From the NCBI RefSeq assembly GCF_001096185.1, contig NZ_CRPU01000002.1:62001-126000 (forward strand): 64,000 bases of DNA. Direction: 5' to 3'. The notes beneath the pieces were generated by a model that saw nothing but the letters and a program-made list of their open reading frames with translations, ran no database searches and was not told where the DNA came from. Numbering within the stretch: position 1 is the stretch's first letter; each line of letters begins with the position of its first letter. A program made the translations under genes and the position numbers. Below, one piece after another: positions 6,238 through 48,116 of the stretch. Source of the DNA: Streptococcus pneumoniae (GTDB lineage: Bacteria; Bacillota; Bacilli; Lactobacillales; Streptococcaceae).

Positions 6238-7593
6238 ATGAATACAATGTTGGATAAAATGCAAGAAAAACTTTCTCCAATTGCAATGAAAGTTGGGAAT
6301 CAGAAGTTTTTAGTTGCTTTACGTGATTCATTTGTGGGGACTATGCCTGTTATTATGACAGGTTCCATTGCTTTGTTATTAAATGCTTTTCTAGTGGATT
6401 TACCACAACAATTTCACCTAGAAAGTATTACGAAAACCTTTCAGTGGCTTGTTGACATCAATAATTTGGTATTCAAGGGAAGTATACCAATTGTTTCCTT
6501 GTTGTTCATCTATTGCTTGGGAGTGAATATCGCTAAGATTTACAAGGTTGATACAGTTTCTGCTGGTTTGGTATCACTTGCCTCGTTTGTCATTTCGATT
6601 GGAAGTACAGTTACAAAGAGTTTCCCTTTGGCAAATGTAGGAGATGTGAAATTAGATCAAATCTTACAAGGAATTGATAATCTAGCATTTGATGGTAAAA
6701 ATCTGATGGTAACTATTGGGAATGTGATTCCAGGAAACCATATCAATGCCAGAGGCTACTTTACAGCCATGATGATTGGATTTTTAGCCTCTATTATTTT
6801 CTGTAAAGTAATGAAAAAGAACTGGGTAATCAAGTTACCAGATTCAGTTCCCCCTGCGATTGCTAAGCCGTTCACTTCTATCATTCCAGGATTTATGGCG
6901 ATGTATGTAGTAGCTATTTTGACTTATATTTTCCATCTACTTAGCAATGACTTATTGATTGATTGGGTTTACAAGGTGTTACAAACGCCATTACTAGGTT
7001 TGTCTCAAAGTTTCTTTGCAGTTATTCTGATGATCTTTTTGAATAAGTTATTCTGGTTTTTTGGTCTCCATGGAGGAAATGTATTGGCTCCCATCATGGA
7101 AGGGCTATTTGGAGTTGCTATGTTAGCGAACTTGGATGCTTTCCAAAAAGGTGAACCGATTCCTTATATATGGACAAGTGGATCTTTTGGGGCGTTTGTC
7201 TGGTTTGGAGGATTAGGATTAGTACTTGCTATTTTAATTTTTTCAAGAAACAGTCATTATCGAAAAGTTGCCAAACTTGGTCTAGCACCAGTTCTGTTTA
7301 ATATTGGTGAGCCGGTCAATTATGGTTTACCAGTTGTCTTGAATCCTTTGCTATTTATACCATTTGTACTTAGCCCAGTTTTCATGGCAACGGTAGCTTA
7401 CTGGGCAACAAGCTGGGGTCTTGTTTCACCTGTTACGCAAAATGTTACTTGGGTAATGCCACCAATTTTATATGGTTTCTTCTCTACAGCATTTGATTGG
7501 CGTGCCATCATCTTATCAGTTGTTTGTTTGATTATTAGTGTCTTGACTTATTTCCCATTTGTGAAAATGGCAGATAAAACTGAATTGAGTTAA
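6238..7593 (+). CDS. PTS lactose/cellobiose-family IIC component
   Basis: This 451-residue integral membrane permease translocates and helps phosphorylate the sugar. There are about ten hydrophobic segments. Family motifs include FWFFGLHGGNVLAPIMEGL and FNIGEPVNYGLPVVLNP, the latter being the conserved substrate-binding loop. Length is normal. The only sugar clue comes from the neighbours: with a sulfatase downstream, a sulfated mono- or disaccharide is a reasonable inference, but specificity is not readable from the sequence. Confidence 0.95.
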   Translation: MNTMLDKMQEKLSPIAMKVGNQKFLVALRDSFVGTMPVIMTGSIALLLNAFLVDLPQQFHLESITKTFQWLVDINNLVFKGSIPIVSLLFIYCLGVNIAKIYKVDTVSAGLVSLASFVISIGSTVTKSFPLANVGDVKLDQILQGIDNLAFDGKNLMVTIGNVIPGNHINARGYFTAMMIGFLASIIFCKVMKKNWVIKLPDSVPPAIAKPFTSIIPGFMAMYVVAILTYIFHLLSNDLLIDWVYKVLQTPLLGLSQSFFAVILMIFLNKLFWFFGLHGGNVLAPIMEGLFGVAMLANLDAFQKGEPIPYIWTSGSFGAFVWFGGLGLVLAILIFSRNSHYRKVAKLGLAPVLFNIGEPVNYGLPVVLNPLLFIPFVLSPVFMATVAYWATSWGLVSPVTQNVTWVMPPILYGFFSTAFDWRAIILSVVCLIISVLTYFPFVKMADKTELS

Positions 7594-36319: not shown

Positions 36320-36361
36320 CTTGTACAAGTTCCTGACAATTTCTTTCTTTTTGTGTATAAT
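36320..36361 (+). promoter_or_regulatory. yefM-yoeB promoter and operator
   Basis: CTGACA (36333-36338), 17-base spacer, TATAAT (36356-36361). The palindrome CTTGTACAAG (36320-36329), with the TGTACA core bound by YefM-family antitoxins, lies just upstream of the -35. No BOX-derived second promoter, as described for some pneumococcal strains, is present. Confidence 0.82.
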
Positions 36362-36391: not shown

Positions 36392-36646
36392 ATGGAAGCA
36401 GTTCTTTACTCAACGTTCCGAAATCATTTAAAAGACTACATGAAGAAGGTAAACGATGAATTTGAGCCTTTGACGGTGGTCAATAAAAATCCAGACGAGG
36501 ACATTGTAGTTCTTTCAAAGAGCGAATGGGACAGTATTCAGGAAACCTTGAGAATCGCTCAAAATAAGGAGTTATCAGACAAGGTTTTGCGAGGAATGGC
36601 TCAAGTCCGTGCTGGAAGCACTCAAGTCCATGTTATTGAGGAGTGA
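36392..36646 (+). CDS. yefM: YefM antitoxin
   Basis: An 84-residue Phd/YefM antitoxin that neutralises YoeB and represses the operon. The N-terminal part (MEAVLYSTFRNHLKDYMKKV) is the DNA-binding fold; the C-terminal part (ELSDKVLRGMAQVRAGSTQV) wraps the toxin. I use ATG 36392, with GAGG 7 bases upstream; 36386 would add two residues. Three bases separate it from yoeB. This pair is characterised in S. pneumoniae. Confidence 0.95.
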   Translation: MEAVLYSTFRNHLKDYMKKVNDEFEPLTVVNKNPDEDIVVLSKSEWDSIQETLRIAQNKELSDKVLRGMAQVRAGSTQVHVIEE

Positions 36647-36649
36647 GGA

Positions 36650-36904
36650 ATGCTGCTCAAGTTTACAGTAGATGCCTGGGCAGATTATTGCTACTGGCAA
36701 ACTCAGGACAAGAAAACGTTAAAAAGAATCAATAAACTAATCAAGGATATTCAACGTGATCCCTTTACAGGAATAGGTAAGCCAGAACCACTCAAGTATG
36801 ACTACCAAGGAGCCTGGTCTCGTCGCATTGACGCAGAAAATCGCTTGATTTATATGATGGATGGAGATAGCGTGGCTTTCTTGTCCTTTAAAGATCATTA
36901 CTAA
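36650..36904 (+). CDS. yoeB: YoeB toxin (ribosome-dependent mRNA interferase)
   Basis: An 84-residue RelE-fold toxin that cleaves mRNA in the ribosomal A site. Conserved features are WADYCYWQTQDKKTLKRINK, DPFTGIGKPEPLKY, the catalytic region SRRIDAENRLIY and the C-terminal SFKDHY with its histidine and tyrosine. All expected catalytic residues are present, so it should be active. Confidence 0.95.
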   Translation: MLLKFTVDAWADYCYWQTQDKKTLKRINKLIKDIQRDPFTGIGKPEPLKYDYQGAWSRRIDAENRLIYMMDGDSVAFLSFKDHY

Positions 36905-36927
36905 GTCTACTGCGAAGTAGGCTTTTT
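36900..36927 (+). terminator. Terminator of yefM-yoeB, right copy of a direct repeat
   Basis: GTCTACT GCGA AGTAGGC followed by five T. Repeats the tmcAL terminator 644 bases downstream, again beginning at a stop codon. Confidence 0.85.
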
Positions 36928-37074
36928 ATTTTTTAAATTTTTATTAGTAAGTTTAAGATAAAGTTTTTTGGAAAATGACAGAAGCCCTAGTACAAAAGAC
37001 AAAAACTCAGTAAAGAAATTTAGTATATGAACTTCGATCTTTACCCTTGAATACGCTTTATAACTCGTATTTTG

Positions 37075-37083
37075 TGGTATAAT
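37075..37083 (+). promoter_or_regulatory. Extended -10 promoter of the hsd operon
   Basis: TGG TATAAT (-10 at 37078-37083), 36 bases before the hsdM ATG. No good -35 is seen at the right distance, as is common for extended -10 promoters in streptococci. Confidence 0.6.
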
Positions 37084-37119
37084 GAAGAGAATTGTTAATA
37101 ATAAAAACAGGGGAAGTAA

Positions 37120-39228
37120 ATGTCTAATTTCAAAGAAAAATTACCACTATTCCAAGCAAATGACATCCAAATCTCTAATGATGTCAATACGGTTTGGTCT
37201 ATCGCTAACACTCTTAGAGGAGCTTATCGAGCAGATAAGTATCGCGATGTCATTATTCCAATGTTTGTCCTGACTCGTTTAGAGGCTGCCTTGCTGCCAA
37301 CCAAGGATCAGGTGGTAGCACAATACAAAGCAAATCCCAATACACCTGAGAAAGTGTTGGAGAAACTTTCAGGCTATCGTTACTACAATGTTAGTCCTTT
37401 TACGTTGGAAAATCTTCAAAACGATCCAAATGCAATCGAGGAGAATTTTATAGCCTATCTGGATGGCTATTCTTGTCGTGTCAAGGATATCATTGAAAAC
37501 CTAAAATTTAAAGAGCAAGTCCGTACCCTAGCCCAGAGTGGTCGCCTTTTCACGGTTATTAAAAAGTTCTCTCAAATTGATTTATCTCCAAGTTCAGTTG
37601 ACTCTATGCGTATGGGATACATGTTTGAGGATATCATCCGTCGATTTTCTGAAAATGAGGAAGCGGGGTCTCACTATACCCCTCGTGAAGTTATTGCTCT
37701 GATGGTCAACCTTCTCTTGATTGAGGCAGACGAAGAACTTTTTGTTGATAAAAAAGAGTTGAAAATACTAGACATGGCGGCTGGAACTGGGGGAATGCTG
37801 GCTACAGCTAAAAGCTATATCCGTCAGTTGAATACAGGAGCCACTGTCCGTCTCTTTGGTCAGGAAGTTTTGCCTGAAACCTTTGGGATTGGTCGTGCAG
37901 ATATGCTAATTCGTCAGGAAGACTCGGACTATTTTGTGAAGGTGGATACTTTAAAAGATCCAGATCCTTTCCCAGATACTAAGATGAGCTTTGTCATCGC
38001 TAACCCTCCCTTCGGTCAAGCTTGGGGTGGTAAGGATGCGGATGATGGGGTTGAGGATGCAGTTAAGAAAGATTATCAACTCTTTGATAAAACAGAAGGT
38101 CGTCAAGGTCGTTTTGTTGCGACTCCAGGAACTGGAGATGCTCAACTACTCTTCCATCTTCATGCTCTTGCAAAATTAGAAGAAAATGGTCGTGCAGCCA
38201 TCATTTCAAATGGGTCTCCCCTCTTTTCAGGTGGGACATCATCGGGAGAAAGTCAGATTCGCCGTTATATCCTTGAGAATGATTTGCTAGAAGCTATAGT
38301 CGCCCTTCCAGGTCAATTTTTCTATAACACAGGAATTGGGATTTATATCTGGATTTATAATAAAAACAAGTCTCCTGAGCGCCAGAACAAGGTTCAGTTT
38401 ATCGATGCGACGGAGGAGTTTATTCCTCTACGTAAATCTCTAGGTCAAAAACGCCGTGAGTTGTCCCAAGATAATATCCGTCAGATCCTTCGCTGGTACG
38501 ATGATTTTCAAGAAAATGACCATGTAAAAATCTTTGACAATCAAGAGTTTCTCTATCGAGAGTTTACAGTTATGCAACCTCTGCAACGTCGTGGCCATAT
38601 AAGCGAAGAAACAATTGAGAAAGCGAAAAGCGTTCCTTTCCTAGCTAAACTATTTGATGAATACAAGTACCAAGAATTACTAGAGATGGAACCACGTTCA
38701 GCCAAGGATGAGAAAAAATTACAGGACTTTGTAGCTGGCAAGACCAAGCAAGAAGCTATCCTGACAGCTCTTTCTAAGGGAAGCTCTGACAAGACTTATC
38801 CTAACTTTGAGAACTTTGTCCAAGTCATCAAGGACTTGCTGGGAGAGTTTAAGCTTACGCCTGCCAATGTCAATGCGCTAGCCTTAGCTATGAGTGAAAT
38901 GGACAAAACAGCAGAAGTTATCCGAACCAAGAGGAAAGACAAGGCAAATGAGATTGCCGATGGGATTGTCTATGATAAGACAACCAAGGACAGTGAAATC
39001 GTTAAGCTGACAGAGGATGTGGAAACCTACTTTGCGCGTGAGGTCTATCCCCATGTACCTGACGCCCACTACTGGTTTGATGAGGAAAAAGGCTATGGAG
39101 CAGAGATTCCTTTTACCCGCTATTTCTATCAATACCAAGCACCAGAAAGTGCAGAAAAGCTCTTGGCAGAGTTTTATGACTTGGAAGCAGAATTACAGAC
39201 TCTCTTGGAGGAACTCAAACATGACTAG
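37120..39228 (+). CDS. hsdM: Type I restriction-modification DNA methyltransferase subunit
   Basis: HsdM methylates adenine at the N6 position within the sequence chosen by HsdS. The 702-residue protein has an N-terminal HsdM_N helical region, the SAM motif LDMAAGTGGMLATAK (D218) and the catalytic NPPF at residues 295-298 (VIANPPFGQAWGG). It is about 200 residues longer than common HsdM proteins; the extra C-terminal part (after about 480) is charged and helical. GGGGAAG precedes the ATG. It overlaps hsdS by 8 bases. Confidence 0.95.
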   Translation: MSNFKEKLPLFQANDIQISNDVNTVWSIANTLRGAYRADKYRDVIIPMFVLTRLEAALLPTKDQVVAQYKANPNTPEKVLEKLSGYRYYNVSPFTLENLQNDPNAIEENFIAYLDGYSCRVKDIIENLKFKEQVRTLAQSGRLFTVIKKFSQIDLSPSSVDSMRMGYMFEDIIRRFSENEEAGSHYTPREVIALMVNLLLIEADEELFVDKKELKILDMAAGTGGMLATAKSYIRQLNTGATVRLFGQEVLPETFGIGRADMLIRQEDSDYFVKVDTLKDPDPFPDTKMSFVIANPPFGQAWGGKDADDGVEDAVKKDYQLFDKTEGRQGRFVATPGTGDAQLLFHLHALAKLEENGRAAIISNGSPLFSGGTSSGESQIRRYILENDLLEAIVALPGQFFYNTGIGIYIWIYNKNKSPERQNKVQFIDATEEFIPLRKSLGQKRRELSQDNIRQILRWYDDFQENDHVKIFDNQEFLYREFTVMQPLQRRGHISEETIEKAKSVPFLAKLFDEYKYQELLEMEPRSAKDEKKLQDFVAGKTKQEAILTALSKGSSDKTYPNFENFVQVIKDLLGEFKLTPANVNALALAMSEMDKTAEVIRTKRKDKANEIADGIVYDKTTKDSEIVKLTEDVETYFAREVYPHVPDAHYWFDEEKGYGAEIPFTRYFYQYQAPESAEKLLAEFYDLEAELQTLLEELKHD

Positions 39229-40492
39229 GATGAAAGAGAGTGGTATCGACTGGATCGGACAGATACCAGAAGAGTGGGAGATGTCTAAAATAAGATATTT
39301 AGTAACTACTAGAAGTGAAAAAAGAATAACAGACTCTTCTGTACCTTATATAGGATTAGAAAATATAGAAAGTCAAACTGGGAAATTTGTTAAAACTGGT
39401 ATACAAGTTGATAAGAGTGAAAATATTGTAGTCGAAATTGGAGATGTTTTATTTGGGAAGTTAAGACCATATTTAAGAAAATATTGGCGAGCCACATTCA
39501 CTTCAACGGTTAGCTCAGAATTTCTTGTATTTCAATCTTCAGAATTAGATATGAATTTTTTATACTATGCTATTCAAAGTGATAGTTTTATTGAAGAAGT
39601 TAATACTTCAACTTATGGTAGTAAAATGCCTAGAGCAAGTTGGGAATATATAAAAAATATGAGAATTGCTTTTCCAACAAGTCTTGTTGAACAACAAAAA
39701 ATTGCTGATTTCCTAGACAAGAAAACAGCTCAGTTAGATAAGGTTAAAGCCCTATTGGAAGAGCAGATTCAAAAACTCAGAGACTACCGCGCTAGCTTGA
39801 TTTATGAAACGGTCACAAAAGGACTGGATAAAACAGTTCCTATGAAGGATTCAGGAATCGACTGGATCGGACAGGTGCCTCAAGGGTGGGGAGTGAATCG
39901 ACTAAAGTACCTGGCAAATAAAATTGGAAGTGGTAAGACTCCATTGGGAGGATCTGAAATTTTTGAAGAAACGGGAATATTATTTATACGAAGTCAAAAT
40001 ATTTATAATGGATTAATACTTTTAGAAGATAAAGCAACTTATATTAATAGAAATATTCATCAACAGATGATTGGAACTTGCGTTAAAAAAAATGATATTT
40101 TATTAAATATAACAGGAGCTTCTATTGGAAGAGTAGCAAAATATGATTTAGATATAGAGGCAAATGTTAATCAACATGTTTGCATTATTAGAAGTAATAG
40201 GTATGTATTACCAGATTATTTAATGTATTTTATTATGTCTGAATTCGGACAGTTTATGATTAAAACTCATCAAATTAGCGGAAATAGGGAAGGATTGAGT
40301 TTTGAGAATATTGGAAATTTTAAAATAATTGCTCCAGGATTAGACTATCAGTATGAAATTAGTCAGTATTTAAACAAAAAAATGTTGACAATTAATCAGA
40401 TGATAAAAACAAAAGAGCAACAAATTGAAAATATTAATAAACAACGACAAACTCTTATTTATGATTATGTAACAGGGAAGAGGAGGGTGTAG
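39221..40492 (+). CDS. hsdS: Type I restriction-modification specificity subunit
   Basis: HsdS recognises the bipartite DNA target. The 423 residues contain two target-recognition domains, each opened by nearly the same motif: MKESGIDWIGQIPEEWEMSK (residue 4 on) and MKDSGIDWIGQVPQGW (about residue 208). Each is followed by a helical spacer (ADFLDKKTAQLDKVKALLEE and SQYLNKKMLTINQMIKTKEQ). I chose ATG 39221, with GGAGGA 8 bases upstream, over the much longer frame overlapping hsdM. The two recognition domains are AT-rich compared with the spacers, as expected from exchange between strains. Confidence 0.94.
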   Translation: MTRMKESGIDWIGQIPEEWEMSKIRYLVTTRSEKRITDSSVPYIGLENIESQTGKFVKTGIQVDKSENIVVEIGDVLFGKLRPYLRKYWRATFTSTVSSEFLVFQSSELDMNFLYYAIQSDSFIEEVNTSTYGSKMPRASWEYIKNMRIAFPTSLVEQQKIADFLDKKTAQLDKVKALLEEQIQKLRDYRASLIYETVTKGLDKTVPMKDSGIDWIGQVPQGWGVNRLKYLANKIGSGKTPLGGSEIFEETGILFIRSQNIYNGLILLEDKATYINRNIHQQMIGTCVKKNDILLNITGASIGRVAKYDLDIEANVNQHVCIIRSNRYVLPDYLMYFIMSEFGQFMIKTHQISGNREGLSFENIGNFKIIAPGLDYQYEISQYLNKKMLTINQMIKTKEQQIENINKQRQTLIYDYVTGKRRV

Positions 40493-40493
40493 G

Positions 40494-41135
40494 ATGTTTT
40501 TTGGGACAAACTTTTTATTTAAGATATGTTATTTTTGGACGGCAATGCTTCCTGCATATATCATTATTTTATTAAAGAAACACGATGAGCTAAAATGTTT
40601 AAGTTTAAACTTTTTTAATATTTCAATTTCTATAGAAGCAATTTTATTGCCTGTATTCATAATTTTTACTTTATTTTCTCTTTTCTATTTACTCTGTAAG
40701 ATAAAAAGAACAGAAGAGAGGAAAACAGGGCAACTAGAAATAACAATAAATTTTAATGTAGAAAAAGATAAAAACGATACGGTGGATAATTATGGATTTT
40801 ATACTGTTAATCCAAATTTAATGGAATATCTATTGAGTATTGTAGTTACTTCGGGGATTACATCATTAGATTTATCTCAATCTTTGTATATTCAACTTTT
40901 TATTTTTGTTGTTGTTCAAATTTTATTATTGCTATATGTATTAAATAGTAGTGATCCTATTCCTAATTTATTATTAGTGATATGTAGAAAAGATATTGTA
41001 TCTGTTGAGGATAAATTATTTATAATATGCGATAGAAGTATATTGAAACAAAGATTATATGGTTTTAAAAAAATAATACCATTTTCATCTAGAGATGCCA
41101 GAAATAGATTATTTGTGTTTAAAAAGGAAGGATAA
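40494..41135 (+). CDS. Membrane protein of a probable defence pair, KwaA-like
   Basis: A 213-residue protein with four predicted membrane spans in two pairs (about residues 8-26, 46-68, 112-128 and 133-155), a cytosolic or outer loop FNVEKDKNDTVDNYGFYTVNP between the pairs and a charged C-terminal tail. This topology, the FYTVNP and DPIPNLLL segments, and the partner gene suggest a KwaA-like protein of the Kiwa anti-phage system, which senses phage at the membrane. It follows hsdS by one base and precedes its partner by 9. GC is low: hand counts of two 60-base lines (40501 and 40861) give 32% and 22%. Resemblance is from memory, not from a search. Confidence 0.45.
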   Translation: MFFGTNFLFKICYFWTAMLPAYIIILLKKHDELKCLSLNFFNISISIEAILLPVFIIFTLFSLFYLLCKIKRTEERKTGQLEITINFNVEKDKNDTVDNYGFYTVNPNLMEYLLSIVVTSGITSLDLSQSLYIQLFIFVVVQILLLLYVLNSSDPIPNLLLVICRKDIVSVEDKLFIICDRSILKQRLYGFKKIIPFSSRDARNRLFVFKKEG

Positions 41136-41144
41136 TTATTTTAT

Positions 41145-42194
41145 ATGCAAGAATTAAAAAATATATACTTGATTGCATGGAAGAACCAAAAGTTTTTTGA
41201 CAGGAATGATAATCCAATTGGTAGCATTTTATTGCCAGATCAAACGGCAGAGTTTTCTAAGATATGGAATAATATGAAATTTGGAGATTTTGCTACTTAC
41301 GAGGAAGCAAAAGAGGGACTAGAAGAGTTTTCGGGAGGTATTATAAAGCAAAGTGTTCCTTATAGACAGAACTTAAATTCCAATCAAAATAGTTATTTTA
41401 AGGAAGAATTTGAAATCCTATCTAATATACGTCGAGCAACAACAATGCCAACGGCAAGAGCGTCGAATGTAACTAGTGAAGGTGGTGATGAGGACTTAAG
41501 TGGTTTTCGATTTTATGTACTAGAGTCTAGCGATGACAACGAGCAAACTACAGTGTATCATTTCGCAAGATTTAGGCCGAGATATCATATATTGAAAAAT
41601 AAAAACCTACTTCGTACTCATCTAGAGACTATAGATACCATCCATTCTAATGCCTCCTTCTCTTTAGATTCAGTGATTTTGATAGAGTCGTCAGTATTTG
41701 CATCTGCAATTTACACTGAAAATGACTCAGAAACTAATATACAAATTTTTGTTCATAAACCAGAAGAATATGAAAATGCTTTTGTTTTAAAAAATTCATA
41801 TTTTGAATATGCCAAAAAAACTTTTGATAGATTTAGAACTAATGATGTTACTGTTAAAAGAACTATTTCTATGCAGGGAGTTTCTGTAAATTGGAATGAT
41901 GAAGAATTTAATCCAAATGAATTTTTTAATCAAAAAAATGTTAATATTGCTAAAAAATTTGCTAGAGATTCAGAAGATGATAAAAATTATGGTATTAATC
42001 GAATCGTAGAGGCTAATGACAAATTGGAAAATAATGTTAGGAAAGGTAATAAACCTCTGGAAGTACTAAAGTCAGAAGAGGGAATTGTTGTAGGATTGTT
42101 AGTAAATGAATCTTCAGTAGCGACACTTGCAGCTATAATGGATGGGCAAATTTGGACTAATGAAATCCATCAGGAGACACAAACAAACATTTAA
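41145..42194 (+). CDS. Soluble partner of a probable defence pair, KwaB/DUF4868-like
   Basis: A 349-residue soluble protein without signal peptide or membrane span. Segments such as DSVILIESSVFASAIY, IQIFVHKPEEYENAFVLKNS, YFEYAKKTFDRF and NVNIAKKFARDSEDDKNYGI recall the DUF4868 domain of KwaB, the DNA-binding effector of Kiwa, which is about 315 residues. No nuclease or NTPase motif is visible. Codon use and AT-richness match the preceding membrane gene and differ from hsdM and hsdR, so the two probably arrived together. Alternative: an unrelated two-gene phage-exclusion module. Confidence 0.45.
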   Translation: MQELKNIYLIAWKNQKFFDRNDNPIGSILLPDQTAEFSKIWNNMKFGDFATYEEAKEGLEEFSGGIIKQSVPYRQNLNSNQNSYFKEEFEILSNIRRATTMPTARASNVTSEGGDEDLSGFRFYVLESSDDNEQTTVYHFARFRPRYHILKNKNLLRTHLETIDTIHSNASFSLDSVILIESSVFASAIYTENDSETNIQIFVHKPEEYENAFVLKNSYFEYAKKTFDRFRTNDVTVKRTISMQGVSVNWNDEEFNPNEFFNQKNVNIAKKFARDSEDDKNYGINRIVEANDKLENNVRKGNKPLEVLKSEEGIVVGLLVNESSVATLAAIMDGQIWTNEIHQETQTNI

Positions 42195-42305
42195 ATAACT
42201 ATTTCTATACCTTAGATTTTTAATAACTTTTAAAATTTTTAAGGAATGATTATTGTAAATTTTTAAATTGAAATGAAAAGAGCTAATATTAGAAAGTGAG
42301 AAGCT

Positions 42306-45284
42306 ATGGCAAATTTGGGTCTGAAGGAGCGCTATGATTTCCAGCAGTGGATTATCAAAGACTTGAAAGAAAAAAATGGCTATATCGAGCGGGACGCTAC
42401 TTGCTACGATCCTAGATTAGCCATGGATGTGGAACTCCTATGGGATTTTCTGATGGAGACTCAGGAAGAGACCATGGACTATCTCCTTAAAAAGCTTAGC
42501 AAGGAGACAATCGTCAATCTGATTAATAAAGAAATCGTCAAGGGTGGCTTGTTATTCGCCTTGAAAGAAGGAGTTTTTATTGAAAATAAACAACTTCGTC
42601 TTCTCTATCGTAAACCTGCGACTAGTTTTAATGAAAAGGCTGTTCAACAATACCAAGCCAACTGTCTATCTGTTATGGAAGAAGTGGTTTACGAGGAGAG
42701 CGACCGTATTGACCTAGTTATCTTTATCAATGGATTAGCACTATTTGCTATCGAACTTAAGTTTAATCCCAGTGGTCAGTCTGTTCAGGATGCTATCAAG
42801 CAGTTAAAGGGGCGCAATCCTCAGAATCGTCTTTTCCGTTTTGAACAGGGAGTCTTGGCTTCCTTTGCAGTGGATACACTAGAAGTCTATATGACGACGC
42901 AATTGAAAGGACAAGAAACCTATTTCCTACCTTTTAATGTGGGGAAAGGGGAAAGTATTGAGATGGGAAGTGGTAACCCTCACAACCCTGATGGTGTCGA
43001 TACAGACTACTTGTGGCTTGATGTCTTGACCAAGGATAGTATTCTCCAGTTAATAGAGAGTTTTATCTTTTTTGAGATGGATAAGCATAATTCTAAAAAG
43101 AAGACCCTGATTTTCCCGAGATACCATCAGCGAAGAGCAGTTAGCCGTCTCCTAGAGGACATGAAAGTCAACCATACTGACAGCAATTATCTGATTCAGC
43201 ATTCGGCTGGTTCTGGTAAAACCAATACCATAGCATGGTTGGCCCACAGCTTAGTTTCTCTTCATGATGATCAGAATCAAAACATCGTAGATACTGTATT
43301 AATCGTTACAGACCGTATCGTAGTTGACCGTCAATTGCAAGAAGCAGTCAAGGAAATCTCCCACAAGCATGGTGTAGTTAAGGTAATGGGAGATAAAGAA
43401 ACCTCCAGTGACTTAGCGGATGCGATTGCAGGAAATACAAAAATCATAGCTACGACTATTCATAAGTTTGCCCAAATCAACCAATCTAACTGGATGTTTG
43501 TAGGGAACACTGCGAAAAAGAAATTTGCCATCCTGATTGATGAAGCCCACAGTTCAACGACAGGATCCTATATGAGTTCGGTTAGTCAAGTCTTGACAGA
43601 AACAGATACAGAAGATGGAACTATCGATGAGATTCAAGAAGTAAGTGTTGCGGATGCTATTGAGCAGGAGATTGCACGGACAGGTAAGCAGGACAATGTC
43701 TCAATCATTGCCTTTACCGCAACTCCCAAGGCGACAACTCTACAGCTATTTGGTACAACCCAAGCAGATGGTTCTAAAGTTCCTTTTGATGTTTATAGTA
43801 TGAAGCAAGCTATTGAGGAAGGTTTTATCTTAGATGTCTTAGATAACTATACGACTTATAAGACCTATTACAAGCTCAATAAAGCAGTCGAAGAAGATCC
43901 TGAGCTAAAAACAACTCTTGCTAAGCGTAAGATTGCAAAGTTTGTAGAATTATCTGATGAAAATATCAATCAAAAGGTTGAAATTATCATGGATCACTTT
44001 ATCAGTCATGATATTATGGCTGAATTGGGTGGTCAAGGTAAGGCTATGATTGTGACTTCGGGTCGTGAGGCAGCAGTTAAGTATCAATTGGCCTTTCAAA
44101 AGTACTTCAAAGACCACAGCATCACTAGTATTGGAACCCTGATTGCCTTTTCTGGCAAGGTTGATTATCAAGGTAGTGAATATACTGAGTCGCAAATGAA
44201 TCAGGTCAAGGAAGATTATTTGAAAGATCATTTTGATACGGAAGACTACCAAATCCTGATTGTGGCAAATAAGTATCAGACAGGGTTTGACCAACCAAAA
44301 CTGGTTGCTATGTATGTAGATAAAAAGTTGCGAAGTGTTGCTGCGGTGCAAACATTGTCTCGTTTGAATCGTATCTATAGAGGCTACAACAAGAAGACCT
44401 TTATCCTTGATTTTAAAAATACTTATGACGATATTCGCTCAGCTTTTTCTCCCTACTACCGTGAGACTATATTAGCAGATACAGTCACACCTAGCGATGT
44501 CTTGACCTTGGATCGGAAAATTGATGAGTATGGTATCTTGGACAGTGATGTTGTTCATGAGTTTAATCAATTCTTATACCAAGAAAAGAGAAACAGCAGA
44601 GAAAAACAAAAGATGGTTTCTCTGTTAAATCAAGGTTATGATAGAGTTAGACGGTTTGATGAGAAAGAACAACTTTCTATTCGAAAGGTTATTCGAGGTT
44701 TTCTTAGAATGTATACTTTCTTGATTCAGGCAACTGCTTATCAAAATGAAGTTCTACACGAACGTTATAATTATCTGCAAAGCCTTGTCAAGATGATTGA
44801 TGTTCGCATTGGAGGAGATGATTTTACAATAGCAGATAAGATCGTAGTGGACTATATGAAACATAAGCAAACAGGTTCCTTCAGGTCAGTTTCTGAATTG
44901 GAATATCATCCAGAGTTAATACTTACCAAGCCAAATACTGGAGGTGTTACGACTGACCAGGAGAAGCGCTTATCTGAAATCTTAGATGAAATTAACGAAC
45001 AGTTGGATTTGGATATTGATCACCAAGTCGGTCTAAGTGGAGCGGTATCCATTCGTGAATTGATGAAAAAGAATCCAAGACTAAAGCAATCTGCTCGTGT
45101 CAACTCCAGAGAAGACTTCGTTTTTGCTTTTGAAGAAGAGATTGACAATGCTCTTATAGAAGGATACTCTCAGAGTCAAGATTTATTTGGTGCTCTATTA
45201 AATAATGATTCTTTCAAGAAGAGATTAGCAGATATATTTATTGATGATGTATTCAAAAGTTTGAAGGGATCCGAAGAAGTGTAA
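42306..45284 (+). CDS. hsdR: Type I restriction endonuclease subunit
   Basis: HsdR translocates and cuts unmethylated DNA. The 992-residue protein has the PD-(D/E)xK nuclease site D136 (IDLVIF) and E150-x-K152 (AIELKF), Walker A GSGKT with K305, the helicase DEAH box at 412-415 (LIDEAHSS) and later helicase motifs (ANKYQTGFDQPKL, VQTLSRLNRIYRG). All motifs are intact, so the system should restrict. A 111-base AT-rich gap separates it from the inserted pair; AAGTGAGAAG is a weak ribosome site. Confidence 0.95.
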   Translation: MANLGLKERYDFQQWIIKDLKEKNGYIERDATCYDPRLAMDVELLWDFLMETQEETMDYLLKKLSKETIVNLINKEIVKGGLLFALKEGVFIENKQLRLLYRKPATSFNEKAVQQYQANCLSVMEEVVYEESDRIDLVIFINGLALFAIELKFNPSGQSVQDAIKQLKGRNPQNRLFRFEQGVLASFAVDTLEVYMTTQLKGQETYFLPFNVGKGESIEMGSGNPHNPDGVDTDYLWLDVLTKDSILQLIESFIFFEMDKHNSKKKTLIFPRYHQRRAVSRLLEDMKVNHTDSNYLIQHSAGSGKTNTIAWLAHSLVSLHDDQNQNIVDTVLIVTDRIVVDRQLQEAVKEISHKHGVVKVMGDKETSSDLADAIAGNTKIIATTIHKFAQINQSNWMFVGNTAKKKFAILIDEAHSSTTGSYMSSVSQVLTETDTEDGTIDEIQEVSVADAIEQEIARTGKQDNVSIIAFTATPKATTLQLFGTTQADGSKVPFDVYSMKQAIEEGFILDVLDNYTTYKTYYKLNKAVEEDPELKTTLAKRKIAKFVELSDENINQKVEIIMDHFISHDIMAELGGQGKAMIVTSGREAAVKYQLAFQKYFKDHSITSIGTLIAFSGKVDYQGSEYTESQMNQVKEDYLKDHFDTEDYQILIVANKYQTGFDQPKLVAMYVDKKLRSVAAVQTLSRLNRIYRGYNKKTFILDFKNTYDDIRSAFSPYYRETILADTVTPSDVLTLDRKIDEYGILDSDVVHEFNQFLYQEKRNSREKQKMVSLLNQGYDRVRRFDEKEQLSIRKVIRGFLRMYTFLIQATAYQNEVLHERYNYLQSLVKMIDVRIGGDDFTIADKIVVDYMKHKQTGSFRSVSELEYHPELILTKPNTGGVTTDQEKRLSEILDEINEQLDLDIDHQVGLSGAVSIRELMKKNPRLKQSARVNSREDFVFAFEEEIDNALIEGYSQSQDLFGALLNNDSFKKRLADIFIDDVFKSLKGSEEV

Positions 45285-45353
45285 TCTTAAAATTCACGCT
45301 AATTTCCCCAAAACATATTCTATTTTAGGTTTGTGAAAATCACTTTTTTATGG

Positions 45354-45359
45354 TAGAAT
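45354..45359 (+). promoter_or_regulatory. Extended -10 promoter of rny
   Basis: TGG TAGAAT (-10 at 45354-45359), 49 bases before the rny ATG. A weak GTGA AAA TCAC hairpin with a T run (45333-45350) just upstream may end the hsd transcript. Confidence 0.55.
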
Positions 45360-45407
45360 GTAAAAGAATGTATGTCATTCGGAATAACAATAAAATGAGG
45401 TAAAAAC

Positions 45408-47021
45408 ATGGAAATCATGTCGATTGCGATTGCTGTTTTTGCCGTCATCATTGGTTTAGTCATTGGATATGTCAGCATCTCAGCTAAGATGAAATCATCT
45501 CAGGAAGCTGCGGAGTTGATGCTTTTAAATGCTGAACAAGAAGCAACTAATTTACGTGGACAAGCTGAGCGTGAAGCGGATTTACTTGTTAATGAAGCCA
45601 AGCGTGAAAGCAAGTCTCTTAAAAAAGAAGCACTATTGGAGGCCAAAGAAGAAGCCAGAAAATACCGTGAAGAAGTGGACGCTGAATTCAAATCAGAACG
45701 TCAAGAACTCAAACAAATCGAAAGTCGTTTGACAGAGAGAGCTACAAGTCTCGACCGTAAGGACGACAATTTGACGAGTAAAGAACAAACACTTGAACAA
45801 AAAGAACAAAGTATTTCTGATAGAGCGAAAAACCTTGATGCGCGTGAAGAGCAATTAGAGGAAGTCGAAAGACAAAAAGAAGCAGAGTTAGAGCGTATTG
45901 GTGCCCTGTCTCAGGCGGAAGCACGAGATATTATCTTGGCTCAGACAGAGGAAAACTTGACAAAGGAGATTGCTAGCCGTATTCGCGAAGCTGAGCAAGA
46001 GGTCAAGGAACGTTCTGACAAAATGGCCAAGGACATCCTGGTTCAAGCTATGCAACGTATTGCTGGTGAATATGTAGCAGAGTCAACAAACTCAACGGTT
46101 CATCTGCCAGATGATACTATGAAGGGACGCATTATTGGTCGTGAAGGTCGTAACATTCGTACCTTTGAAAGTTTGACAGGGGTCGATGTGATTATCGACG
46201 ATACACCAGAAGTGGTGACCTTGTCAGGTTTTGACCCGATTCGTCGCGAGATTGCCCGTATGACTATGGAAATGTTGCTCAAGGATGGTCGTATCCACCC
46301 AGCTCGTATCGAAGAGTTGGTTGAGAAAAACCGTCAAGAGATTGATAATAAGATCCGTGAATATGGTGAGGCAGCAGCCTATGAGATTGGTGCGCCAAAC
46401 CTTCATCCAGACTTGATGAAAATCATGGGTCGCTTGCAGTTCCGTACTTCATATGGACAAAATGTCTTACGTCATTCGATTGAGGTTGCTAAGTTGGCTG
46501 GTATCATGGCCAGCGAACTTGGTGAAAATGCGGCTCTTGCCCGTCGTGCTGGATTCCTTCACGATATCGGAAAAGCCATTGACCGCGAGGTTGAAGGTAG
46601 CCACGTTGAAATCGGTATGGAACTGGCACATAAGTACAAGGAACATCCAGTTGTAGTGAATACGATTGCTAGTCACCACGGCGATGTAGAACCTGAAAGC
46701 GTCATTGCAGTGATCGTTGCTGCAGCAGATGCCTTGAGCGCAGCCCGTCCAGGTGCTCGTAGTGAGTCTCTTGAAAGCTATATCAAGCGTCTTCATGATT
46801 TAGAAGAAATTGCGAATGGCTTTGAAGGGGTACAAAATAGCTTTGCCCTTCAAGCAGGACGTGAAATCCGTATCATGGTCAATCCAGGACAAATCAAGGA
46901 CGACAAAGTCACAATCTTGGCTCACAAAGTTCGTGAGAAAATTGAAAACAATCTCGATTACCCAGGAAATATCAAGGTAACCGTGATTCGCGAGCTTCGT
47001 GCAGTAGATTATGCTAAATAA
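45408..47021 (+). CDS. rny: Ribonuclease Y
   Basis: RNase Y is the membrane-anchored endoribonuclease that starts mRNA decay. The 537 residues show one N-terminal span ([19 protein letters not shown]), a long coiled coil to about residue 200, a KH domain ([20 protein letters not shown]) and an HD domain with H385-D386 ([10 protein letters not shown]). Length is normal. In related genomes it lies close to yefM-yoeB; here the hsd-defence block sits between them. Confidence 0.97.
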
Positions 47022-47030
47022 ATAAGAAAG

Positions 47031-47056
47031 AGCAGTTGAAAAATTACTGCTTTTTT
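47031..47056 (+). terminator. rny terminator
   Basis: AGCAGT ... ACTGCT followed by six T residues. Confidence 0.8.
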
Positions 47057-47135
47057 GTTACACTAGATAGAAAGACTGTAAAGGATAATCTGGCTTTTTG
47101 CCATTATTCTAGGGAAATGTTATTTCACAGACTGA

Positions 47136-47777
<642 letters not shown>

Positions 47778-47801
47778 AATTTAGAAAATAGGTACAAGCA
47801 A

Positions 47802-48116
47802 ATGATGTTAAAACCCTCTATTGATACCTTGCTCGACAAGGTTCCTTCAAAATATTCACTCGTAATCTTGGAAGCAAAACGTGCCCACGAATTGGAAGCA
47901 GGTGCGCCAGCAACTCAAGGTTTCAAGTCTGAAAAATCAACTCTTCGCGCTTTAGAAGAAATCGAATCAGGAAACGTAACAATTCACCCAGATCCAGAAG
48001 GGAAACGTGAAGCAGTGCGTCGCCGTATCGAAGAAGAAAAACGCCGCAAAGAAGAAGAAGAAAAGAAAATCAAAGAGCAAATTGCTAAAGAAAAAGAAGA
48101 TGGTGAAAAAATTTAA
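47802..48116 (+). CDS. rpoZ: RNA polymerase omega subunit
   Basis: A 104-residue omega subunit helping RNA polymerase assembly. It starts [20 protein letters not shown], with the conserved [16 protein letters not shown], and ends in a strongly charged lysine/glutamate tail typical of streptococci. Confidence 0.96.

Follow-up and report, generated by a model that had tools for sequence, protein, structure and literature searches.

What are two AT-rich genes doing between hsdS and hsdR of a type I restriction-modification operon, and to which defence system, if any, do they belong? The question is raised by a 64,000-nucleotide stretch of a contig of Streptococcus pneumoniae, a mitis-group species (NZ_CRPU01000002.1, positions 62,001 to 126,000), hereafter the window, in whose positions all coordinates are given. 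Here hsdM (37120..39228), hsdS (39221..40492), a gene for a putative membrane protein (gene A, 40494..41135), a gene for a soluble protein (gene B, 41145..42194) and hsdR (42306..45284) follow one another on a single strand, with an intact yefM-yoeB toxin-antitoxin pair upstream and rny downstream; all genes of this island lie on the plus strand. The three hsd genes are intact and the operon is complete, with non-hsd genes of defence type embedded among them on the same strand. Genes A and B are low in guanine plus cytosine (24.0% and 31.7%, respectively); the window as a whole has 41%, hsdR 39% and rny 44.5%. An earlier note, made from the sequence alone, had described an overlap of hsdM and hsdS, gaps of 1 and 9 bases and an AT-rich pair inserted before hsdR, and had read the pair as a divergent form of the two-gene anti-phage system Kiwa or a new two-gene exclusion module, co-regulated with restriction. 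The layout agrees with our coordinates and base composition: hsdM and hsdS overlap by 8 bases (hsdS starting at 39221), gene A follows hsdS after 1 base, gene B follows gene A after 9, and hsdR follows gene B after 111. The assignment we would change. By profile comparison the two genes form a divergent pair of the PDC-M39 type, which we regard as a sister to Kiwa and not as Kiwa itself. Together they probably encode a two-protein anti-phage module of that type, which occupies, as a cassette, a conserved slot at the hsdS-hsdR junction.

The product of gene A (213 amino acids) matches two PADLOC models of PDC-M39A strongly (PDLC04626, 1.5e-20; PDLC04625, 6.7e-14) and the KwaA model weakly (4.3e-3); it matches no Pfam family, and no toxin family in PADLOC, Pfam or NCBIfam. 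A profile of seven M39A sequences, from which the window and its closest relative, S. mitis DD26, had been left out, finds gene A at 2.7e-22, and when run against five KwaA proteins it finds three at 6.6e-5 or better and the others at 2.5e-4 and 0.15. Compared profile to profile in hhalign, PDC-M39A and KwaA align over 179 columns with a Prob of 97.6 and an E value of 4e-12 (Prob 96.8 and 97.4 with other alignments). Compared with M39A, KwaA scored 78.7, and none of 42 other membrane open reading frames (ORFs) exceeded 26.2; 47 such ORFs were run, five of which proved M39A-like, and these controls were single sequences while KwaA was a profile. Two M39A proteins bridge the families, matching the PADLOC models of both: that of L067 (M39A 1.5e-14, KwaA 1.7e-9) and that of L023 (M39A 9.1e-49, KwaA 5.8e-8). 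On such profile comparisons, the family of gene A is clearly tied to KwaA. The four membrane spans that the earlier note had seen in gene A are plausible, although a simple hydropathy scan gives three peaks over threshold (residues 8-26, 50-68 and 131-149), and four helices, within the first 151 residues, appear solely in an AlphaFold model of very low confidence. On two plasmids (L064, L065), PDC-M39A-like genes carry the annotation 'antibiotic resistance protein VanZ', which is probably a wrong label for a KwaA-related membrane protein.

Gene B encodes a soluble protein of 349 amino acids that matches no PADLOC or Pfam model at E values up to 1. The domain that defines KwaB of Kiwa, DUF4868 (PF16162), is not detected in it, nor is there a PF16162 match anywhere in the window's genome; the PADLOC model of PDC-M39B (PDLC04628) likewise has no match in that genome, gene B included. 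Membership of PDC-M39B comes into view with a profile of nine family members built without the window and DD26, which finds gene B at 9.3e-11, the next non-relative ORF scoring 0.042 in a scan of 680 ORFs plus family members. In hhalign, gene B aligns with five M39B proteins over 207 columns (E 2.6e-4, Prob 42). Identity is 17-20% to the five proteins that match the PADLOC M39B model and 14-20% to all aligned relatives except DD26. By homology, we take gene B to be a member of the PDC-M39B family, and a distant one. The link of that family to KwaB is weak: depending on which of four alignment versions was used, hhalign returned an E value of 8.2e-5, 5.3e-4, 1.1e-3 or 2e-3, and KwaB outscored all 174 other clusters (176 were run, two of them M39B members), the control clusters in this comparison as in that of M39A with KwaA being ORFs of fetched loci, some of them spurious. 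The NCBIfam family CLIBASIA_04065 was set aside as a home for gene B (16 bits against a cut-off of 450).

The pair is filed under PDC-M39 because the KwaB link of gene B is weak and the matches to M39A and M39B are stronger. With PDC-M39 it shares the strong M39A matches, the M39B profile match, the order of a membrane gene followed by a soluble one, and close adjacency across the 9-base gap; it differs in that gene B escapes the PADLOC M39B model and is so distant from the proteins that match it. With Kiwa it shares a membrane protein related to KwaA at the profile level and similar gene sizes, and true Kiwa fills the same slot in two other strains (L055, L058), but gene B has no detectable DUF4868/KwaB domain. 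Of the divergent Kiwa that had been proposed, then, the kinship through the membrane protein holds, and the identification of gene B with KwaB does not hold as it was stated; PADLOC, suggested at the time as a check, places gene A in PDC-M39A and leaves gene B without a model.

The pair is rare. Among 284 Streptococcus genomes, gene B turns up in two, that of the window and that of S. mitis DD26; it is therefore not a housekeeping gene. DD26 has the same cassette in the same place, so the nested order does recur in another streptococcus, and positions 40403-48000 of the window are 97% identical to it in DNA. The two copies of gene B differ at 26 bases (proportions of synonymous and nonsynonymous differences, pS 0.074 and pN 0.0125). 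Of these differences (41145-42194 compared with L003 8001-9050), 24 fall at gene bases 848-1005, as if recombined. A class-level sample of 398 genomes returned the window's own gene B and one further match, of 38 residues at E 0.007, which was dropped as chance.

The family is broader. The PADLOC M39A model has matches in 15 genomes out of 395 from the order, one of them the window's own. Of the other 14, 11 were read over longer stretches, as was DD26. In 8 of these 11 loci (L020-L023, L026-L029) the M39A membrane gene has beside it a gene for a soluble protein of some 300 residues; this partner is PDC-M39B in L020-L023 and L028, and KwaB by both Pfam and PADLOC in L026, L027 and L029. The membrane-then-soluble order is kept in L020-L023, L028, L065 and L067. 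L031 appears to be a chance match. In L024 (9271-9867) and L025 (9206-9835), a membrane gene of PDC-M39A/KwaA kind stands solitary, with no gene-B partner, beside a neighbour that by eye resembles a response regulator. As to genomic setting, PDC-M39 pairs are often found close to type I genes. The pair follows the HsdR gene in L020 and L021, with type IV (Mrr) and helicase genes between (these were scanned in L020 only), and L022 looks alike by eye; on an Enterococcus raffinosus plasmid (L067) the pair precedes HsdR and HsdM genes, and in L028 a fragment of hsdM is close by. No type I gene was seen near the PDC-M39 genes of four others in the stretch read, namely L023 and the three plasmids L064, L065 and L066. 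No relatives of gene A, gene B or PDC-M39B were found in viral contigs; tblastn searches of plasmids with genes A and B gave no match, nor did a search of phages with one PDC-M39B protein or of plasmids with the KwaB of L055. As for KwaB, the cut-off of its Pfam model is passed in 2 of 247 Streptococcus genomes (L055, L058), both copies lying in the hsdS-hsdR slot, and two further matches at 6e-4 fall under it.

That slot can be followed across strains. HsdR was matched at E <=1e-100 in 19 of 279 Streptococcus genomes, and in 14 of them, the window's own included, the part that matched shows an identity of at least 77%. All 14 of these operons were read, and every one carries cargo between hsdS and hsdR, of six types: the present PDC-M39-type pair (window and DD26); KwaB-KwaA, that is, true Kiwa (L055, L058); PDC-M67A-B (L059); a soluble protein of 281-286 amino acids with a membrane protein of roughly 160 (L052, L056, L060-L063); SIR2-like, ThsA-related proteins (L053, L054); and PDC-S42 (L057). 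Soluble-plus-membrane pairs account for 11 of the 14 cargos, and PADLOC models are matched by five of the six types. Between cargos of different type the shared DNA amounts to 0-3%, rising to 38-44% where each includes an additional Fic-type gene, to which we attribute the higher figure; hsdR is covered over 95-100% in all pairs. The additional gene, of 301-305 residues, lies just before hsdR in L058-L063, and in the three copies scanned (L058-L060) it encodes a Fic protein with a helix-turn-helix start. Since the genes found at this point in related streptococci are of very different kinds, for the most part of defence type, the operon looks like a socket into which anti-phage modules can be swapped. 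The L052-type pair is possibly an undescribed two-gene defence. Weak matches to DUF6731 in L061 and L062 lie under the cut-off. The idea that it is plain PDC-M67 was rejected, as a profile made without L059 fails to find L059 and the DUF6731 matches are all below cut-off, and neither it nor PDC-M67 stood up as a further relative of Kiwa (hhalign Prob 0.1-9.2).

The edges of the slot were mapped by blastn against six loci at the same chromosomal site that hold other cargo. DNA identity stops at 40491/40492, the hsdS stop codon, in 6 of 6, and returns at 42281-42291, 15-25 bases upstream of hsdR, again in 6 of 6, which delimits an exchangeable cassette of 40493..42284 on the plus strand. The right edge in eight same-site loci is a conserved hsdR leader, about AGAAAGTGAGAARCT (42285..42305, plus strand), which is replaced by other sequence in L058-L063. 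At the left edge, cargo starts -4 to +6 bases from the hsdS stop in 12 of the 14 operons and about 53 bases on in L053 and L054; an ORF was taken to start at the first start codon after a stop, so these spacings are estimates. The end of hsdS is itself nearly invariant, reading AGGAGG in 7 of 14, GGAGG in 1, AGGAGA in 4 and none of these in 2. In the window, the AGGAGG (40481..40486, plus strand) is Shine-Dalgarno-like and sits within the last hsdS codons, 7 bases upstream of the gene A start codon. Further upstream in hsdS, blocks of DNA identity place the strain-variable target-recognition domains at roughly 39297-39687 and 39897-40370 of the plus strand, with a conserved centre and 3' end. 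DD26 shares the cassette with the window and not the HsdS target domains, and in L053 it is the second target domain that is shared (96% over 805 bases), not the cassette. HsdS target domains and cargo thus reassort separately, and the hsdS-hsdR junction is an exchange slot whose cargo differs between strains with near-identical flanks.

We give an even chance to a more specific proposal, in which the streptococcal hsdS-hsdR junction would be a dedicated socket: the last codons of hsdS would supply a ribosome-binding site together with one homology arm, and the hsdR leader and gene would supply the other. Whole defence systems (Kiwa, PDC-M39, PDC-M67, SIR2-like, PDC-S42) would then be exchanged by natural transformation, independent of the HsdS target domains, so that a single operon would shuffle both DNA specificity and a backup defence.

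For the pair itself, we hypothesize that the gene A product is a membrane protein that signals when a phage attaches or injects its DNA, which would be the part of KwaA. The gene B product would be tethered to it in the cytoplasm and, like KwaB, would act on the DNA as it enters, or would halt the infection in some other way. Of this mechanism, the membrane side appears better supported than the DNA side. The gene spacing suggests co-expression with hsdMS; the module would be made from the hsdMSR message behind the ribosome-binding site inside hsdS, and hence together with the restriction enzyme, which it would back up against phages whose DNA escapes cutting. Cassettes would be exchanged by homologous recombination through the conserved 3' end of hsdS and through hsdR, separately from the target domains. 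In Kiwa, according to a review (PMC12904381), KwaA forms tetramers in the membrane, to which dimers of KwaB are bound, and collects where the phage injects its DNA; KwaB attaches to that DNA and, without cleaving it, prevents replication and late transcription.

Several results weigh against this account. Taken alone, gene A reaches 8.1 bits (E 0.089) against our own KwaA profile and gene B 6.0 bits (E 0.2) against our own KwaB profile, and an alignment of the window and DD26 copies of gene B scores E 0.081 (Prob 0.7) against three KwaB proteins. Searches of the PDB with the PDC-M39A and PDC-M39B alignments miss the solved KwaA and KwaB chains, respectively, and return unrelated matches alone, at E 0.018 or worse; single-sequence searches of the PDB give 0 matches for gene A and 0 for gene B. 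AlphaFold models built on the window and DD26 are too poor for use, with mean pLDDT of 34.5 for gene A and 31.7 for gene B. The PADLOC model of PDC-M39B matches 0 of 329 genomes in a sample of the phylum, the window's own included, yet it does match the control, Lactococcus lactis. As regards the slot, neither gene of the L052-type pair, present at 6 of 14 loci, matches a PADLOC model, L053 and L055 are without the ribosome-binding motif, and the cargos of L053 and L054 begin some 53 bases downstream. Promoters may also lie within the operon; the numbers of promoter- and terminator-like sites are close to those of shuffled sequence. In the literature consulted we met no experiment in which a PDC-M39 pair arrests a phage.

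Some of these scores bear equally on the reading that comes nearest to ours and overlaps it, namely that the pair is Kiwa in the strict sense, A being KwaA and B a KwaB diverged beyond the models, with a KwaA tetramer and KwaB dimers that bind injected DNA. In its favour are a KwaA-related membrane protein whose soluble neighbour is similar in size to KwaB, the PADLOC KwaA match of gene A, the similarity of the M39A and KwaA profiles, the rank of KwaB above 174 other clusters for M39B, and the presence of true Kiwa in the same slot of L055 and L058. It nevertheless has to explain a gene B with no KwaB match, standing at E 0.081 and 0.2 when compared with KwaB directly, and a gene A that scores far higher with PDC-M39A than with KwaA; we consider it unlikely, although it deserves to be kept in mind. 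Quite improbable, in our view, is a role in the service of the restriction enzyme, in which A would anchor or gate HsdR or HsdS at the membrane and B would regulate restriction, with no separate defence. Such a role would suit the shared operon, the 1-base gap to hsdS, the ribosome-binding motif in hsdS, the presence of cargo beside every close HsdR relative (14 of 14) and the prevalence of soluble-plus-membrane pairs among them (11 of 14), but unrelated families (SIR2-like, PDC-S42) replace the cargo beside the same HsdR, and PDC-M39 genes occur in L023, L064, L065 and L066 with no type I gene in the stretch read. We think equally little of a membrane toxin with a soluble partner, a toxin-antitoxin or abortive-infection unit that would stabilise the island: a small AT-rich membrane protein next to a soluble one would fit, and a toxin-antitoxin pair already flanks the island, with such genes also near the L065 and L066 copies, but gene A is related to KwaA and neither A nor B matches a toxin family. 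That these are passenger genes without defence function, caught at a recombination spot, is very improbable, for although the clustered gene B differences between the two strains suggest recombination and the cargo type found at 6 of 14 loci matches no defence model, both genes are intact in two strains, pN is below pS in gene B and the other five cargo types match PADLOC models.

Defence genes embedded in a type I operon are an arrangement of a known kind. In enteropathogenic Escherichia coli, DarTG2 lies between hsdS and hsdR of the RptR island, at what has been called a potential recombination hotspot (PMC12255303); there too a two-gene defence module occupies the junction, but its genes are unrelated to A and B and an RptR repressor stands at the front, whereas the streptococcal slot has six types of cargo and mapped edges within one genus. 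TgvAB of Vibrio cholerae, inside a type I cluster of Vibrio pathogenicity island 2 (VPI-2; PMC11411939), is likewise a two-gene nested defence, but acts by modification-dependent restriction through proteins unrelated to those of genes A and B. Among streptococci, S. thermophilus 90730 has a Kiwa that is active against lactococcal phages and lies in a defence island with restriction systems (PMC11514479). The PDC families of PADLOC were derived by 'guilt-by-embedding' (PMC10855318), and PDC-M39 appears, for Bacillus cereus, among the candidates whose proteins DefenseFinder files under another name (PMC11811056). It may therefore already be known that PDC-M39 is connected to some published system, possibly Kiwa, and PDC-M39 in type I operons may already be listed in preprint literature. 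Our searches found no paper that describes the streptococcal hsdS-hsdR slot or a PDC-M39-Kiwa link; new as far as we have seen are the divergent PDC-M39/Kiwa-related pair itself and the mapped socket with its varied cargo. Tying a candidate family to Kiwa by its membrane subunit predicts a testable mechanism for PDC-M39 and would widen the Kiwa group past the reach of current KwaB models. The slot also offers a practical route to new defence systems, by reading the genes between hsdS and hsdR in streptococci, and suggests that restriction operons may link a change in DNA specificity to a change in a second line of defence.

The remaining genes of the island, all on the plus strand, are readily identified. 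The yefM antitoxin gene (36392..36646; Pfam PhdYeFM_antitox, 4.5e-16) starts at an ATG at 36392 inside a longer ORF and is followed by the yoeB toxin gene (36650..36904; Pfam YoeB_toxin, 1.6e-40). HsdM matches Pfam N6_Mtase (1.2e-58) and HsdM_N (5e-20) and PADLOC MTase_I (3.8e-212), HsdS matches Pfam Methylase_S (7.9e-19), and HsdR matches Pfam HSDR_N (2.6e-12) and SWI2_SNF2 (1.7e-21) and, under the cut-off, TIGR00348 (1.2e-66). The best promoter match in the region, CTGACA-17-TATAAT (11 of 12 positions; 36333..36361, plus strand), precedes yefM-yoeB; promoter-like sites number 35 in the whole region against a shuffle mean of 29.2 (standard deviation 4.4), and because the counts are so near those of shuffles we regard it as a mere consensus match. 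A terminator-like hairpin follows yoeB (36903-36924, plus strand), one of 6 such sites in the region against a shuffle mean of 4.9. On the right, rny (45408..47021, plus strand) flanks the island and is matched in 59 of 59 relatives, at 99-53% identity apart from the window's own. Among the other loci, L063 has a broken HsdR copy. In L061 and L062 hsdS is open in one frame, and that of L062 covers 100% of the corresponding stretch in L063. In L053, the SIR2-like cargo has an in-frame stop near its start (about 7376-7480), with an open relative in L054, and this copy may be broken. Five more distant HsdR loci, 39-45% identical, present another picture: four of them (L098, L099, L100, L102) share a constant gene of 380 residues in the slot, and L101 has none. 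This gene overlaps both hsdS and hsdR and, in the one copy scanned (L099), has no Pfam or PADLOC match.

Eight of the 14 loci with close HsdR relatives share one chromosomal site, flanked by tmcAL-yefM-yoeB on one side and rny on the other, and five of the cargo types occur there; we take the flanking genes to be tmcAL, rny and gmk. Stages of the site were read from the 1.5 kb before rny in 29 relatives. In 21 of these neither of two simple arrangements precedes rny, in 7 (L069, L071, L073, L074, L076, L078, L079) tmcAL adjoins rny with no island, and in one (L077) the order is tmcAL-yefM-yoeB-rny with no restriction genes, which indicates that the toxin-antitoxin pair can exist without the rest of the island.

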